In this document: positions 57,927 through 64,000 of the stretch, one piece after another
Layout of the letters: the number at the start of each line of letters is the position of its first letter
Position numbering within the stretch: the stretch's first letter is position 1
Notes under the pieces: generated by a model
Databases searched by the model: none
What the model saw: the letters and a program-made list of their open reading frames with translations, nothing else
What the model was told of the DNA's origin: nothing
From: Streptomyces formicae
Lineage (GTDB): Bacteria; Actinomycetota; Actinomycetes; Streptomycetales; Streptomycetaceae
Assembly (NCBI RefSeq): GCF_002556545.1
Contig: NZ_CP022685.1
Coordinates: 496,001-560,000 of the forward strand
Direction of reading: 5' to 3'
Length of the DNA stretch: 64,000 nt
Made by a program: the position numbers and the translations under genes

Positions 57927-59291
57927 TTACGCGCCGCTCGCGTCGAGCATGTCCGCGCGCTCGACGATCTTCACGCGCTCGCGGCCCTGCGGCTCGCCGA
58001 GCGCCTTCTCGGCGGCGTCCAGGCGGTACCAGCCGTCCCACGTGGTGAAGCGGACGTTCCGCTCGCCCAGGAAGGCGTCGACGGCCTCCGGAGCGGGCGC
58101 GGTGGGGGTGTGCAGGCGGCCGTTGGCGTGGTCGTCGAGGAGGCTGGCGACCGTCTCGTTGGCGTCGCCCTTGGTGTGGCCGATCAGGCCCACGGGACCG
58201 CGCCTGATCCAGCCGGTGACGTACGTGGACGTGAGGTGCTCGCCGGACTCCTCGATCACGCGTCCCGCCTCGTCGGGAACCGTGCCGGAGGCGACGTCCC
58301 AGGGCAGCTTGGGCAGCTCGTCGGAGAGGTAGCCGACGGCGCGGTAGACGGCGCCGAGGTCCCAGTCCTTGAACTCGCCGGTGCCCTTCACGTTGCCGGT
58401 GCCGTCGAGGGCGGTGCGCTCGGTGCGCAGGCCGACGACCTCGCCGTCCTCGCCGAGGATCTCGACGGGCGACTCGAAGAAGTGCAGGAAGAGCTTGTGC
58501 GGCCGGTCGCCGACGTCGCGGATCGCCCAGTTCTCCAGGGTCTTGGCGACCATGTCCGCCTGCTTGTTGCCGCGCCGGGTGGCGATCGACCCTTCGTCGT
58601 AGTCGATGTCCTCGGGGTCGACGATGACCTCGATGTTCGGGGAGTGGTCGAGCTCCCTGAGCTCCATCGGGCTGAACTTGGCCTGGGCGGGGCCGCGGCG
58701 ACCGAAGACGTGCACCTCGAGGGCCTTGTTGGCCTTGAGTCCCTCGTGGACGTTGGCCGGGATCTCGGTCGGAAGCAGTTCCTCCGCGGTCTTGGCGAGG
58801 ATGCGCGCGACGTCGAGTGCGACGTTGCCGACGCCGAGGACGGCGACCTTCTCCGCGTCGAGGGGCCAGGTCCGCGGGACGTCGGGGTGTCCGTCGTACC
58901 AGGAGACGAAGTCCGCGGCGCCGTACGAACCGGCGAGGTCGATGCCGGGTATGTCCAGCGCCCTGTCGGCGGTCGCGCCCGTGGAGAAGATCACTCCGTC
59001 GTAGAACTCGCGCAGGTCGTCCAGGCTGATGTCGCCCGGGTAGTCGACGTTGCCGAAGAGGCGGATCTGGGGCTTGTCGAGGACCTGGTGCAGGGCCGTG
59101 ATGATGCCCTTGATGCGCGGGTGGTCGGGGGCGACACCGTAGCGGATCAGACCGAAGGGGGCGGGCATCCGCTCGAAGAGGTCGATGGAGACACCGGGCT
59201 CGACGGCAACTGCGGATTTGAGCAGCGCGTCGGCGGCGTAGATCCCGGCGGGGCCGGCTCCGACAATGGCTACCCGCAGAGGGCGAGGCAT
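57927..59291 (-). CDS. fprA: ferredoxin/adrenodoxin-NADP+ reductase, FprA type
   Basis: The 454-aa flavoenzyme has an N-terminal FAD motif RVAIVGAGPAGIYAADALL, LFERMPAPFGLIRYGVAPDHPRIKGI (adrenodoxin reductase signature), NADP motif VAVLGVGNVALDVARIL, VHVFGRRGPAQAKFSPMELREL, and TGWIRRGPVGLIGHTKGDANETV near the C-terminus. It passes electrons from NADPH to ferredoxins. An iron-box-like site lies 64 nt upstream, suggesting IdeR/DmdR control. Confidence 0.95.
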   Translation of the reverse strand: MPRPLRVAIVGAGPAGIYAADALLKSAVAVEPGVSIDLFERMPAPFGLIRYGVAPDHPRIKGIITALHQVLDKPQIRLFGNVDYPGDISLDDLREFYDGVIFSTGATADRALDIPGIDLAGSYGAADFVSWYDGHPDVPRTWPLDAEKVAVLGVGNVALDVARILAKTAEELLPTEIPANVHEGLKANKALEVHVFGRRGPAQAKFSPMELRELDHSPNIEVIVDPEDIDYDEGSIATRRGNKQADMVAKTLENWAIRDVGDRPHKLFLHFFESPVEILGEDGEVVGLRTERTALDGTGNVKGTGEFKDWDLGAVYRAVGYLSDELPKLPWDVASGTVPDEAGRVIEESGEHLTSTYVTGWIRRGPVGLIGHTKGDANETVASLLDDHANGRLHTPTAPAPEAVDAFLGERNVRFTTWDGWYRLDAAEKALGEPQGRERVKIVERADMLDASGA

Positions 59292-59354
59292 GTTCAGGTT
59301 CCCTTCGAGCGGTGGCGGTACGCGTCTCGTAGCGGCGGTACTCAGCGGGAAGCC

Positions 59355-59373
59355 TAAACTAAGGCAAGCCTAA
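59355..59373. promoter_or_regulatory. iron-box-like IdeR/DmdR operator upstream of fprA
   Basis: TAAACTAAGGCAAGCCTAA matches the 19-bp actinobacterial iron-box consensus TTAGGTTAGGCTAACCTAA at 13 of 19 positions by my alignment, best in the right half AGGCAAGCCTAA. It is centred about 73 nt before the fprA start, as expected for an operator. Confidence 0.55.
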
Positions 59374-59649
59374 GTCAGTAGGCGGGTCCGATCTATGACC
59401 CCATAAGCCGCACTTATGACCCGGCACCACGCTGTCGCCACGGGGTCCCCGACGGGCGCTGACCTCCCCCGCTGCCGTATCCGTCCCCGCACTCGCGGGC
59501 GTGGACGGTTTATGCAGGTGCCGGATGAGGGCACGCTCGCGGGGCTGACGCTGGCTGTTTACCCGTGTATTCATGTCATGCACGTCGGGAGTCACCGAGG
59601 AAACACTGATCCCTTGCCGCAATGAAGCAACAAGAAGGAGATCTCAACC
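59374..59649. other. intergenic region upstream of XRE gene, promoter-like
   Basis: An unusually AT-rich region for this genome with a dyad CATAAG-CCGCA-CTTATG at 59402-59418 and an A/T-rich stretch CTGTTTACCCGTGTATTC near 59550-59575. It probably contains the promoter for the short peptide at 59650 and the XRE gene. No gene seen. Confidence 0.5.
59402..59418. promoter_or_regulatory. inverted repeat in fprA/XRE divergent region
   Basis: CATAAG-CCGCA-CTTATG, perfect 6-bp arms, flanked by a repeated ATGACC on both sides (TATGACC before, TATGACC after). It resembles a regulator binding site; the binding protein is unknown, and the downstream XRE protein is one candidate. Confidence 0.45.
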
Positions 59650-59778
59650 GTGCTTCACGTGACGCTGCGCACGTCAACTTCCGTCGCGGATTTCAGAGCC
59701 ACCCCGCCCTCGAAAAGGAAGGACACCGCAAGGATCGCACCCGGCCCCGGCGAATCGGATACCACGGGCTGGGACTGA
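59650..59778 (+). CDS. candidate short peptide, 42 aa, unknown function
   Basis: A GTG-started frame of 42 codons begins 9 nt after AAGGAG (59635-59640), a good ribosome site. It encodes MLHVTLRTSTSVADFRATPP, then a basic SKRKDTARIAP and an acidic PGPGESDTTGWD C-terminus. A basic leader with an acidic Thr/Gly/Trp/Asp tail is compatible with a short modified-peptide precursor or a signalling peptide, but no family is recognised and a 79-codon frame overlaps it in another phase. It lies upstream of the XRE regulator, about 98 nt away. Confidence 0.35.
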   Translation: MLHVTLRTSTSVADFRATPPSKRKDTARIAPGPGESDTTGWD

Positions 59779-59875
59779 GCATGCCGCCGCGCCACCGTGC
59801 GGCAGCCCTTGCGAAAGAGCGTCTTCTCATGGCGGAAGGACCGAAATCCCGTTGGCCGGGTTGACTGGAGGGGCT

Positions 59876-60325
59876 GTGCAGTCGCGCTGGAAGGAAAACG
59901 AGTTCGGATCCATTCTGCAGTTCTATCGGACCTGGCGGGGGCTTACCCAGCAGCAGCTGGCCGACCTTTCCGTCCTGAGCGTACGGGCGTTGCGGGACCT
60001 GGAGCACGGCCGGGCCAAGCGGCCCCGGCGGGAAACCGTCCGACTCCTCGCCGATGCCCTCAGGCTCGACACCGAGAGGCGCGAGGTCTTCGAGCAGGCG
60101 GCTCGCCCGACGCCGGTCGGCGGTGCCGAACTGTCCGGCATCCCCTTCATGGGCGACGTCTATGAATACGCCACGGTGCCCCTCGACTCCCCGACCGCCG
60201 AACATCCGCAGGGCGGCTGGGCCGAGGCGCTCAACGACCTGGCGAAGCAGTCCTGGCGGCTCGTCACCGTCGATCGCGGCGTGGCGTTCCTCGAGCGCCA
60301 GCTCTGCCCCAGGGCCGACGTCTGA
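59876..60325 (+). CDS. XRE-family HTH protein fused to a DUF4177-like C-terminal domain
   Basis: The 149-aa protein has an XRE helix-turn-helix at residues 10-60 (FGSILQFYRTWRGLTQQQLADLSVLSVRALRDLEHGRAKRPRRETVRLLADAL). The C-terminal 60 residues, VYEYATVPLDSP...GGWAEALNDLAKQSWRLVTVDRGVAFLERQL, look like a DUF4177 domain (YEYxxVxL, LNxLxxxxWxLVxV, FLxR). GTG 59876 follows GGAGGGG at 4 nt. The combination in such a short protein is uncommon. It may regulate the short peptide at 59650 or the neighbouring genes. Confidence 0.78.
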   Translation: MQSRWKENEFGSILQFYRTWRGLTQQQLADLSVLSVRALRDLEHGRAKRPRRETVRLLADALRLDTERREVFEQAARPTPVGGAELSGIPFMGDVYEYATVPLDSPTAEHPQGGWAEALNDLAKQSWRLVTVDRGVAFLERQLCPRADV

Positions 60326-60342
60326 CCGGTCGGTCCCTGACG

Positions 60343-60358
60343 GGCGGTGGTCACCGCC
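60343..60358. terminator. hairpin after XRE gene
   Basis: GGCGGTG-GT-CACCGCC lies 18 nt after the stop, between the convergent XRE and LuxR-type genes. Small but perfect. Confidence 0.5.
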
Positions 60359-60448
60359 GGGCCCTTCCCCGCTCCCCCGCTCCCCGGATCCCTCCGCGCG
60401 GATCGGCGGCGCACCGGCGGTGACCTCGTCATCCAGGCCGCGGCCCGG

Positions 60449-61492
60449 TCATTCGTCTCCCGAGAGCCACCCTCGCGCCCCTGCCCGCACCCCGGCCTGG
60501 AAGCGGCTGCGGGCGCCGAGGAGGGCCATCACGTTGGCGGCGATACGACGTGCGGTGCGTGGCGAGACCCCGAGCCTGGCGGCCACGGCCTCGTCGGTGA
60601 GGCCCTGCCCGAGCAGCCTCAGCGCCTCGGTCTCCTGAGCGGTCAGTCCCGACTCGTCGCGGCCCCGCACCTTCGCGCCGAGGGGCGCCGCCGTCTCCCA
60701 ACACCGTTCGAACAGCGCGCAGAGCGCCGCGAGCGTGCCGTCGTCCCTGAGCACCAGGGCCCCTGCCGCACTGTCCTTGTCGTCGGTCGCGAGGACCGCC
60801 GTGGTGTGGTCGAGGATCATCAGCCGGATGGGGAGCGACACCGCGGTGCGCACCTCGCCGCCGAACTCCGTGAGCCACTGGGCGTACTCCATGGTGGCGG
60901 GGCTGTTGCGACAGCTGTCGAGGTAGAGGGTGCGCATCCGAATGCCCCTGCGCAGCAGTTCGCGGTCCTGCGGCTTGGCGCGCTCCAGGCTCGCCTCGCT
61001 CTGGGCGCCGCCCGGCGCGAAGGTCATCACGGCGCCGGTCACGGACTTGACGAGGGTGCCGATCCGGTCGCGGATCGCCTCGATGCCGTGGAGCTGTTCG
61101 ACTCCGTCGGGATATCCGTGGGGCCGGGCGCCGTTCACCACGTCGGAGGTCAACTCGGCGGCGAGCAGCTGTATCTGGGCGACACGGCGCTGTTCGGCCG
61201 CGATGCGCTCCTGGTGGTGCGCGATGAGCATGTGGGCGGCGACGTTGGGATCGACGGCGCGATAGTGCTCCGGCGCTTCGAGCGTGGCGCGTATCAACGA
61301 CAGTTCGCTGAGCCGGGCCAGGATCTCGCGCAACCGGCCCTGCGAAATGTCGAGCCGGGAGGAGAGTCCCGCGATGTCCGCGCCGAAATCGGCAAGGATG
61401 GCCTTGTAGACCGCCTTGCCCTCCTCGTCCAACTGCAACGCGTCAAACGACGCGAATCCGGATTGATGTCCCTGCGGGGTATGTAGGTTCAT
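60449..61492 (-). CDS. TrmB-like/LuxR-type transcriptional regulator
   Basis: The 347-aa protein has an N-terminal TrmB-like winged helix (LQLDEEGKAVYKAILADFGADIAGLSSRLDISQGRLREILARLSELSLIRA), a middle sensor-like region with IRDRIGTLVKSVTGAVMTFAPGG and LRRGIRMRTLYLDSCRN, and a C-terminal LuxR HTH (GLTAQETEALRLLGQGLTDEAVAARLGVSPRTARRIAANVMALLGARSRFQAGVRA). This architecture is common for pathway-specific regulators in Streptomyces peptide clusters. A possible 18-aa peptide frame lies 17 nt upstream in the same direction. Confidence 0.88.
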   Translation of the reverse strand: MNLHTPQGHQSGFASFDALQLDEEGKAVYKAILADFGADIAGLSSRLDISQGRLREILARLSELSLIRATLEAPEHYRAVDPNVAAHMLIAHHQERIAAEQRRVAQIQLLAAELTSDVVNGARPHGYPDGVEQLHGIEAIRDRIGTLVKSVTGAVMTFAPGGAQSEASLERAKPQDRELLRRGIRMRTLYLDSCRNSPATMEYAQWLTEFGGEVRTAVSLPIRLMILDHTTAVLATDDKDSAAGALVLRDDGTLAALCALFERCWETAAPLGAKVRGRDESGLTAQETEALRLLGQGLTDEAVAARLGVSPRTARRIAANVMALLGARSRFQAGVRAGARGWLSGDE

Positions 61493-61509
61493 CCAGAGTT
61501 CCCTCAGCC

Positions 61510-61566
61510 TCAGTCATGGTGGGGCTTAGCTGAGCGCATGGCGAATTCCGCGGGGATGTGGCTCAT
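61510..61566 (-). CDS. candidate 18-aa leader or signal peptide upstream of LuxR-type regulator
   Basis: The short frame encodes MSHIPAEFAMRSAKPHHD. Its ATG 61566 follows a very strong ribosome site (GGAGG, about 7-8 nt away, in GTGGAGGTATGGAA). It ends 17 nt before the regulator start. It could be a translated leader peptide, a signalling peptide or a modified-peptide core. No homologue is recognised; expression is unknown. Confidence 0.35.
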   Translation of the reverse strand: MSHIPAEFAMRSAKPHHD

Positions 61567-61937
61567 TTCCATACCTCCACACTCCCCGTGGTGAGTGGAC
61601 TGGCCGAAAATCTTGGTGAATCTTGGCCAACCTAGCCGACGGGGAACAACTGCACACCCCTGACGAAGCGTCAACAAACATTTATCGGACAGCCGACAGA
61701 TACCGCCATCAACTGGTTCGGCACGCGCCTGAACTGCCCATTCGACGGGGCGCACTCATCGCATTTCAACCATCACACGAACCAGGAAGTGGCCGAGATG
61801 CTGCGGGAGATCGTCTTCCGCAGCGGATCCCGCACACGACGGCGGAGGCCGGGCTCTCGGGCGACGGGGCATTCAAGCCAGACGGCATATGAACAACGCG
61901 CCGTCAACACACCGCCAACACACCACCACCACACGAA
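61567..61937. other. intergenic region with promoter features and an unassigned open frame
   Basis: The region is AT-richer than its surroundings. On the plus strand a frame open from 61633 reads INWFGTRLNCPFDGAHSSHF, then NHHTNQEVAEMLREIVFRSG, which looks protein-like but has no upstream start codon; a gene remnant or chance are both possible. Nothing else is recognised. Confidence 0.4.
61609..61626. repeat. direct repeat AATCTTGG with 10-bp period
   Basis: AATCTTGGTG followed by AATCTTGGCC, one helical turn apart, 43 nt upstream of the short peptide start at 61566. It is a candidate activator site for the peptide/LuxR transcript. Confidence 0.45.
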
Positions 61938-62002
61938 CGGCCCGGGCGGCCCGTCACCGAGGCGATCTGTTCACCTCGGCCGCTGACGGGCCGCCCGGGC
62001 CG
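61938..62002. terminator. long bifurcated hairpin terminator after PRMT-like gene
   Basis: Perfect 19-bp outer arms (61938-61956 and 61984-62002; GGCCCGGGCGGCCCGTCA and complement) enclose an inner CCGAGG/CCTCGG stem. It lies 81 nt past the methyltransferase stop. It is the strongest hairpin in the window. Confidence 0.88.
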
Positions 62003-62083
62003 GTGGATCAGGGCCGGATTACCGCTTGCGCATCGCTTCGCCCGGGGATCTCCGGACGCTCGTCGGTTCCCCTTGGCGAACGT

Positions 62084-63190
62084 TCAGGCGACGGTCACGC
62101 TCAGCCGGTAGTCGCTCCAGCTGAGCCGCAGCGGGACCTTCTCCCCCGCGGTGACGGGGACGGGCAGCTCGAAGGGGACGAGCGCCTGCATCCAGTGCGA
62201 GTCCTTGCTGTCGGGACCGTTGCACAAGGTCGTCGCGCCGAGATCGAGTTCGAACCAGACGACGAGCGCGTGGGCGAGCCCGTCGGTCTCGGCGGCCACC
62301 GGCAGGGTGCGCGCGCCGGGCCCCAGGATCCCCTTCTCCAGATCGAAGGCGACGAGCGGGACGGCTCCGGAGAGCATCTGATGCGGCCATGTGTTGAGGC
62401 GTACGGGGAAGTGCCCGGGCGTCGCCAGGGAGTTCATCAGGGAGACGTCGAACCCGCTCGCCATGTCGACACGGTTGAGCCGGGCCATGGACTCGCTCTG
62501 CACCAGCTGTCCGTACAGCCGCGCCGTGGCGGGCAGCATGATGCCGTCGGGCGCGAGCAGATGCTCGCGGGCGTGGCGGATGGAGGGCAGCAGGCCCTCG
62601 CCGATCAGCCCGCAGTCGACGATCTCGGAGACCAGGACGTCCGCGCGCGCGTCGATGTCCTTGCCGACCACGAGCTCCGTCGACGGCTTCCCGATGACGG
62701 TGATGGTGTCGGACATGCCGTGCGCGTCGATGATCTGCCGCGCGACCTCCGCGAGGAGCGGGTTGAGTTCGCACGTCGTCACGCGTCCCGCACCGGCCCG
62801 CACGGCCGCCATGGCGAGGAGTCCGGTCCCCGATCCGATGTCGAGGACGTGCGAACCGGGCGGCACGCTGCTCTCCAGCGCCGAGACGAGCGCGCTGTTG
62901 CGCTCCGTGTCGTTCAGCATCGCGAAGTGCCAGCGGGGCACGGAAGCGAGCGCGATGTCGGACATCGCACCCGAACCGGCGCCCAGGTGCGCCGCCGGGT
63001 CCCGCAGCGTCGCCTGCGCCCGCTCGGCGAGGTCCTTGATCTCCTGGGCCAGCGTCTGCAACGAGGCGACCGCCAGGCGGTACGCGCTGTCGGGCGGGTT
63101 CGGCGCCGAGCCGCTCCCGGTGTCGTCAGGCGCGGTGAGCGGACGGCGCACCCTGGTGGTCGTACTGGTCTCGCTCTCCTGCAGAAACAT
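62084..63190 (-). CDS. PRMT-family (protein arginine methyltransferase-like) SAM-dependent methyltransferase
   Basis: The 368-aa protein has SAM motif I VLDIGSGTGLLAMAAVRAGA, acidic post-I TTCELNPLLAEVA, the PRMT double-E loop VSEIVDCGLIGEGLLPSI, and the C-terminal beta-barrel with the THW-loop variant SHWMQALVPFELPVPVTAGEKVPLRLSWSDYRLSVTV. The double-E and HW motifs are what place the target guanidinium in PRMTs. The N-terminal 90 residues are extra (helical, linker-rich). ATG 63190 has AGGAG 5 nt upstream. It follows the Asp/Asn hydroxylase, 74 nt away, same strand, and is ended by a strong terminator. Confidence 0.85.
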   Translation of the reverse strand: MFLQESETSTTTRVRRPLTAPDDTGSGSAPNPPDSAYRLAVASLQTLAQEIKDLAERAQATLRDPAAHLGAGSGAMSDIALASVPRWHFAMLNDTERNSALVSALESSVPPGSHVLDIGSGTGLLAMAAVRAGAGRVTTCELNPLLAEVARQIIDAHGMSDTITVIGKPSTELVVGKDIDARADVLVSEIVDCGLIGEGLLPSIRHAREHLLAPDGIMLPATARLYGQLVQSESMARLNRVDMASGFDVSLMNSLATPGHFPVRLNTWPHQMLSGAVPLVAFDLEKGILGPGARTLPVAAETDGLAHALVVWFELDLGATTLCNGPDSKDSHWMQALVPFELPVPVTAGEKVPLRLSWSDYRLSVTVA

Positions 63191-63264
63191 TCTCGCTCCT
63201 GATGTCGGAAGCCTGCTCGGAAGCCAACTCGGCGGCCTGATCGGCGGCCTGAGGTGTGTGCGGC

Positions 63265-64000
63265 TCAGCCCGCGGGCCGTACCGCGGAGCGCAGGGCCTC
63301 CTCCGTACGGCTCCCGTGGCGCCTGCGGAAACGGACGCGCAGGCCGCCGTCGGCGGGCTCGACCTTGAGCGTGCGGTCCATCATTCCGCCGGTCATGCGG
63401 AACTCGCCCTCGCCGACGTGGACGAGCGATGCGGTCGGGACGCCGCCGACGTCGAGGATCAGACGGTCCTCGTCGAGCCGGAGTCGGCCTTCGAGGTCGG
63501 GTGTCGCCGCGTCGTCGAGTTCGTCGATCTCGCCGTACAGGAATTGTCCGGGAAGCGCGAAATCGGCGAGCATGGAATGCAGTTCGGCCTTGCCGAGCGG
63601 CATTTCGGGCCGGTCCACGAGTACGTCCGACCAGCGCATGGATTCCCGGAAGTCCGCGGGGAAGAGTTCCAGGAGTTCCCGGCTCACATAGCTGTCGATG
63701 ACGAGGTGGACGCGGCGTTCGCTGCCGCCGTTGCGCACCGAGTGCAGCCGGTTGAAGTCGCCGAACCACAGGGTGCCCGGCTGCCAGGTGTAGTCGACGC
63801 CGTCCAGGGTGAGAACGGCTTCCTCATTGGTGATCAGCGGTATGTGCAGCCGCACCCACCCGGCCGGCAGGCCGTAGGGATAGTCGCGGTGTTCGGAGAC
63901 CTCGGCGCCGGGGCCGAGTGCCATGAGCCGCACCGCGCGCACGTCGGTCGGCAGCGCGTCCACGATGGACGCGATGTAGGGGGCCTGCTCCATCCAGGGC
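63265..64000 (-). CDS. aspartyl/asparaginyl beta-hydroxylase-like dioxygenase, N-terminus outside window
   Basis: The frame is open through the right edge; ATG 63993 exists, but the preceding codons read Pro-Trp and fit the family N-terminus, so the true start is probably beyond the window. At least 242 aa: PYIASIVDALPTDVRAVRLMALGPGAEVSEHRDYPYGLP with the metal HxD motif (EHRDYP), VRLHIPLITNEEAVLTLDG, LWFGDFNRLHSVRNGGSERRVHLVIDSYV with the second His and 2-oxoglutarate Arg (Asp_Arg_Hydrox family). The C-terminal 110 residues are an added domain of unknown function. It is upstream of the PRMT gene and may act on the same target. Confidence 0.87.
   Translation of the reverse strand, partial: PWMEQAPYIASIVDALPTDVRAVRLMALGPGAEVSEHRDYPYGLPAGWVRLHIPLITNEEAVLTLDGVDYTWQPGTLWFGDFNRLHSVRNGGSERRVHLVIDSYVSRELLELFPADFRESMRWSDVLVDRPEMPLGKAELHSMLADFALPGQFLYGEIDELDDAATPDLEGRLRLDEDRLILDVGGVPTASLVHVGEGEFRMTGGMMDRTLKVEPADGGLRVRFRRRHGSRTEEALRSAVRPAG

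Follow-up and report, generated by a model that had tools for sequence, protein, structure and literature searches.

Gene organization at the locus

The window, i.e. the whole stretch of 64,000 nucleotides from Streptomyces formicae that was analyzed (G000:C1:496001-560000, + strand, with G000 being the organism's own genome, a single contig of 9.61 Mb), ends in two neighboring enzyme genes on the reverse strand. One of them encodes an SznE-family (PRMT7-like) arginine methyltransferase (MT) of 368 amino acids with an intact reading frame (62084..63190, −), and the other a putative Fe(II)/2-oxoglutarate amino-acid hydroxylase of family PF05118, of which the 3′ 736 of 975 nt lie within the window (63265..64000, −). 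The hydroxylase frame is also intact and comprises 324 amino acids in full length, its start being located outside the window at genome position 560239 (as taken from protein P0121). The 74 nt between hydroxylase stop and MT start (63191..63264, −) contain a GGAG ribosome-binding-like site before the MT ATG, which, together with the common strand, is consistent with one operon for both genes. MT is the last of a same-strand run of cluster genes and is directly followed by a strong hairpin (61935..62010, −; −64.6 kcal/mol for 76 nt, calculated without shuffle control), which is a probable operon end.

Two regulators, as already recognized in the sequence-only reading, are also encoded here. The TrmB/LuxR-type regulator (60449..61492, −) is conserved at 57-60% in three other genomes (G272, G447 and G627), while the XRE-type regulator (59852..60325, +) is found at 58-62% and nearly full length in G447 and G627. 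In a separate XRE search in 150 relatives, 14 matches were obtained (12 of them with loci), all of which, except for the own genome, cover the HTH half only. Two candidate small peptides had also been proposed for this region, a suggestion that could not be upheld: among 31 short frames (20-120 aa) in window positions 59001-62083, four match related clusters at E ≤ 0.01, all of them antisense to the TrmB/LuxR and XRE regulator genes, and no precursor-like conserved peptide was found among the 31.

MT and hydroxylase close the edge of a nonribosomal peptide synthetase (NRPS) cluster that extends about 27-29 kb past the window. The peptide context anticipated beyond the window is present in the form of C, A, T and TE domains plus tailoring genes adjoining the pair, most of them on the same strand. 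Encoded on the strand of MT are an MFS exporter, an ArsR-type HTH regulator, a glutamate-synthase-like (GltB-like) FMN protein, a methylaspartate (glutamate) mutase E-like and S-like pair, an SDR, a VioC/GntD-like arginine/enduracididine beta-hydroxylase (NCBIfam NF041363, 393.8 bits, cutoff 345), a large NRPS of 3286 aa (NRPS1), an AsnA-like synthetase (432 bits, cutoff 368), a stand-alone A-T didomain, a TauD-family protein, a thioesterase and MbtH. Both mutase proteins score under their NCBIfam equivalog cutoffs, the Pfam cutoff being passed by the E-like protein and not by the S-like one. The opposite strand carries a C-A NRPS fragment (NRPS3), a SnoaL-like protein and a branched-chain aminotransferase, after which a penicillin-amidase-family gene follows on the reverse strand. 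By Pfam and motif analysis, NRPS1 is organized as A (C-terminal part)-T-C-A-T-C-T-C-A-T-TE. As one of its C-T modules contains no A domain, this module may be fed by the stand-alone A-T didomain. The NRPS modules also share 77-81% identical DNA over 1.6-2.0 kb (L002 12525 to L003 2385), pointing to internal duplication or gene conversion.

The methyltransferase and its relatives

The earlier assignment of MT as a PRMT-type enzyme with double-E loop, HW loop and C-terminal barrel is borne out by domain content, residue conservation and predicted fold. A domain search identified a PRMT_C domain (39.2 bits vs a cutoff of 27) next to a methyltransferase domain, and the best sequence relatives in the PDB are PRMT9 and PRMT7 (8rbk, E=1.2e-42). 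In the predicted structure (mean pLDDT 82, with low confidence at residues 1-22), the barrel is present, and a PDB fold search with this model returned PRMT7 and PRMT9 chains first (4c4a, E=2e-26, TM 0.65 by query length). The sites that we take to be SAM-binding motif I, double-E loop and HW loop are all conserved in an alignment of 30 sequences: in VLDIGSGTGLL (residues 115-125; 62816..62848, −) V115, L116, D117, I118, G119, G121, G123 and L125 are invariant, and the double-E loop from E189 to E198 (62597..62626, −) as well as H332-W333 of the HW loop (62192..62197, −) occupy invariant columns. By alignment, the spacing between the two glutamates equals that of PRMT9. While fold and both loops are thus shared with eukaryotic PRMT7 and PRMT9, MT consists of one catalytic unit, whereas several of the matched PRMT7/9 chains exceed 600 aa; moreover, unlike for PRMT7/PRMT9, no protein substrate is indicated for MT.

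Out of 7995 candidates scored in one protein search, 689 are related to MT at E ≤ 1e-3. For the best 120 of these 689, the source names are bacterial, so the notion of PRMTs as almost entirely eukaryotic does not apply to this family. Many SznE-family proteins among the matches listed carry the NCBI label '50S ribosomal protein L11 methyltransferase', and such labels may conceal SznE-family enzymes from genome mining.

A scan of genome contigs gave 48 MT-related loci with flanks of up to 10 kb of contig (shorter in some). A SznF-like gene is located in 40 of these 48 loci, 36 times directly downstream of the MT relative and four times upstream; with at least 50% identity to MT, such a gene lies directly behind the MT relative in 29 of 30 loci, the exception being L035. 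In L007, the gene adjoining the MT relative corresponds to SznF over its whole length (PDB sequence match 6m9r, E=3.7e-293). A maximum-likelihood tree was calculated from 50 rows (window MT, P0002 and the 48 loci, SznE itself being no row), in which the window MT groups in a set of ten together with eight SznF-paired rows and one unclassified row at a support of 100/98. Its own branch measures 0.3, and several distant rows are long-branched with uncertain joins. Judged by phylogeny, MT belongs inside the SznE family, with the placement made via SznF-adjacent relatives. At the same time, G000 carries no SznF: a hidden copy was considered and rejected, as the sole genome match amounts to 24% over 149 aa (E=4.9e-6).

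The exception L035 (8987-11026, Streptomyces albus subsp. chlorinus) lacks SznF, and its SznE-like domain is part of a 679-aa frame, the beginning of which resembles, by eye, another methyltransferase, making a fusion possible. SznE-SznF-like pairs were also observed in cyanobacteria, myxobacteria, an acidobacterial MAG and a Pseudomonas (L037-L042, L044, L045, L047, L050, L053), and this spread beyond actinomycetes suggests a wider N-hydroxy or N-nitroso guanidine chemistry.

The neighboring hydroxylase

The proposal of an Asp/Asn beta-hydroxylase with an extra domain holds in part. PF05118 is confirmed as the sole domain found, including the HxD...H triad and the 2-oxoglutarate arginine, and a beta-rich C-terminal extension can be followed through the alignment of 30 sequences. 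In this alignment, H117 and D119 (63883..63891, −), H166 (63742..63744, −) and R176 are invariant, the first three presumably being the iron ligands by family knowledge. The AspH type, on the other hand, is not supported. AspH combines a TPR domain with the oxygenase, as named in PDB titles of the fold matches, and this TPR domain is absent from the domain search result. Among solved structures, L-proline cis-4-hydroxylase (E=2.4e-7) and a beta-hydroxylase are the best sequence relatives, while L-proline cis-4-hydroxylase, the same beta-hydroxylase (from a nucleoside-antibiotic pathway) and proline 3-hydroxylase all rank ahead of AspH in fold. Hence, the protein looks like an amino-acid hydroxylase. 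Normalized to query length, the fold matches reach TM values of 0.4-0.5, and normalization to target length gives up to 0.78 with the small beta-hydroxylase. Overall superposition with the proline hydroxylases is poor (rmsd of about 16 Å over the reported columns), so that the result is to be read at family and not at substrate level. L-proline cis-4-hydroxylase (4p7w) and proline 3-hydroxylase (1e5r), although among the best relatives in both sequence and fold, share about 20% identity with the hydroxylase, and only part of it superposes.

Co-occurrence and related clusters

Co-occurrence of the two enzymes, as implied by a functional pair, was not observed beyond the own genome. Among 392 sampled genomes of the genus, 33 contain the hydroxylase (E ≤ 1e-20) and 11 contain MT, and only G000 contains both, i.e. 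one genome versus 0.93 expected if both were distributed independently. A conserved MT/hydroxylase pair was therefore rejected. Likewise, the window hydroxylase was not found in any of the 48 MT-related loci (tblastn, E ≤ 1e-10). Of 12 MT matches in the 392 genomes, eight have a SznF-like gene within a 4-kb locus; of the other four, one is the window itself, two are fragments from a single genome, and one is a distant relative.

Three genomes, G256, G447 and G627, share with S. formicae the hydroxylase, MFS, stand-alone A-T, TauD, TE2 and MbtH genes, and additionally the GltB-like, MutE, SDR, VioC and NRPS genes. On other contigs of the same three genomes, AsnA (77-78%) directly precedes the NRPS start (the G256 contig begins at AsnA), with XRE and TrmB/LuxR genes beside this part in G447 and G627; these contigs, which are not physically linked to the former, were assigned to the same cluster on the basis of their matching gene order. 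In G256, G447, G627 and G272, MT was not found at E ≤ 1e-6, while the same query matched 11 genomes as positive control. The occurrence of this cluster with hydroxylase and without a detected MT in three other genomes means that the MT/hydroxylase pair is not conserved; instead, the hydroxylase forms part of the core, the cluster is repeatedly accompanied by the two regulators, and MT is its added last gene.

G272 holds a decayed remnant of the same NRPS cluster, in which the hydroxylase, MFS and TrmB/LuxR genes are left together with a TauD gene split in two and portions of the A-T didomain and of TE2; no strong match to the other cluster genes was found in this genome. Neighborhoods were fetched for 20 of the 33 hydroxylase genomes, and NRPS sequence is nearby in five of these 20. 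Five more NRPS loci (L109-L113) contain a hydroxylase of 44-46% identity together with MbtH and TrmB/LuxR in all five and TE2 in four, and constitute a second, related cluster family.

The first NRPS module and the A-domain pockets

NRPS1 of G000 starts at motif A8 of its first A domain, while the C-A fragment on the opposite strand stops after A7, with break points at genome positions 577266 and 585518 (L002+L003). The front part of this A domain is thus missing from the large NRPS, whereas the relatives possess a complete first A domain. An 8.25-kb inversion was considered as origin of the split and dropped, since AsnA directly precedes the NRPS start in the relatives as in G000 and NRPS3 is only 39-40% like the first A domain of the relatives; in addition, a search for long inverted repeats at both ends of the presumed inversion gave none. 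It rather seems that NRPS1 was truncated at the front of its first A domain and that NRPS3 is a fragment of non-orthologous origin; an assembly error may also lie behind the split. Production is uncertain, as module 1 of the NRPS looks damaged or rebuilt in S. formicae, and the pathway may be rewired here or dead or silent.

We assigned A-domain codes manually on the basis of aligned motifs; the Gln-like code of NRPS2 and the basic-residue code of module 4 obtained in this way are leads only. Compared to the three MT-less relatives, the last (module-4) A domain of G000 carries the code-position changes 239 M>V and 322 F>C, while the stand-alone A-T shows one code change and module 2 none (one relative available). 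The module-4 core, picked after viewing the alignment, diverges in 31 of 165 conserved columns (those where the relatives agree) vs 58 of 424 elsewhere, which is not significant (Fisher p=0.13). A matched change of the module-4 pocket with MT presence is therefore a lead only.

Proposed role of the methyltransferase

SznE/StzE is an arginine-guanidino methyltransferase that acts with SznF in streptozotocin biosynthesis, the substrate of SznF being N-omega-methyl-L-arginine (review PMC11705231), which SznF hydroxylates (PMC13108848). Like SznE/StzE, the window MT is a PRMT-like enzyme in an actinomycete biosynthetic cluster and falls inside the SznF-paired clade; unlike it, MT has no SznF partner and occurs in an NRPS context instead of a nitrosourea pathway. 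A further SznE homologue, 31% identical to SznE, led to the saskemycin cluster, where, as in our reading, an SznE-type gene serves an N-methylated guanidine outside streptozotocin; saskemycin is a glycolipid with a polyagmatine tail, and no NRPS is mentioned in the available part of the report (PMC12637814).

Based on this family placement and gene context, we consider it fairly probable that MT produces N-omega-methylarginine, with a building block of an orphan nonribosomal peptide being either this methylated arginine or the precursor from which it is made. MT would monomethylate arginine at its guanidine group with SAM as methyl donor, acting most likely on free L-arginine and alternatively on carrier-bound arginine, having been added at the end of the gene run that encodes the orphan pathway. 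In this pathway, the TauD-family enzyme, the VioC/GntD-like enzyme and the PF05118 protein would act as hydroxylases in trans, with the last one working independently of MT on a free or carrier-bound amino acid, and the glutamate-mutase-like pair may contribute as well. A literature search, with most subscription papers outside its coverage, found no NRPS product with methylarginine and such genes.

It is less likely that MT acts late, methylating an arginine side chain on a carrier protein or in the finished peptide, although this would agree with the general action of PRMTs on arginine in proteins and with the MT gene being the last before the hairpin. BlsL of blasticidin S biosynthesis, likewise performing SAM-dependent guanidine methylation for a Streptomyces product, shows efficient methylation of a leucyl intermediate but hardly any of the free one (PMC5572114). 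Unlike MT, however, BlsL targets the delta nitrogen of this late intermediate and displays low similarity to PRMT and GAMT (same source), while the clade of MT is that of SznF-paired enzymes, and SznF takes N-omega-methyl-L-arginine. Even less probable is a passenger gene from a decayed streptozotocin-type (SznE-SznF) locus without any role in the peptide: the genome lacks SznF and the MT/hydroxylase pairing was seen in G000 only, as expected for such a leftover, but MT is intact with all family-invariant residues kept, starts 74 nt after the hydroxylase stop, has a ribosome-binding-like site of its own and is followed by the hairpin. The original interpretation as an undescribed type of ribosomal-peptide modification cluster, built on a PRMT-like and an AspH-like enzyme lying side by side, is highly improbable given the NRPS surroundings, the lack of a conserved short frame among those in window 59001-62083, the SznE-SznF relatives of MT, the unconserved pair and a hydroxylase closest to amino-acid hydroxylases among solved structures.

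Returning to N-omega-methylarginine as product of MT, a more far-reaching and rather doubtful scenario is that the NRPS recruited the PRMT-family enzyme from an SznE-SznF operon while the pocket of its last A domain shifted, through the smaller residues at 239 and 322, toward acceptance of N-omega-methylarginine, possibly in a form that also carries a beta-hydroxyl group from the VioC/GntD-like enzyme. If true, the enzyme would have been recruited recently, with the gatekeeper changing to match.

Implications

The arrangement at this locus is real and its parts are ordinary, while their combination, an orphan NRPS pathway to which arginine methylation of the SznE type has been joined, is of interest. 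It places an SznE-type gene outside the nitrosourea setting and beside a peptide pathway, and the otherwise similar clusters offer a comparison with and without MT. For S. formicae, it is a pointer to an orphan peptide that likely carries a methylated guanidine.
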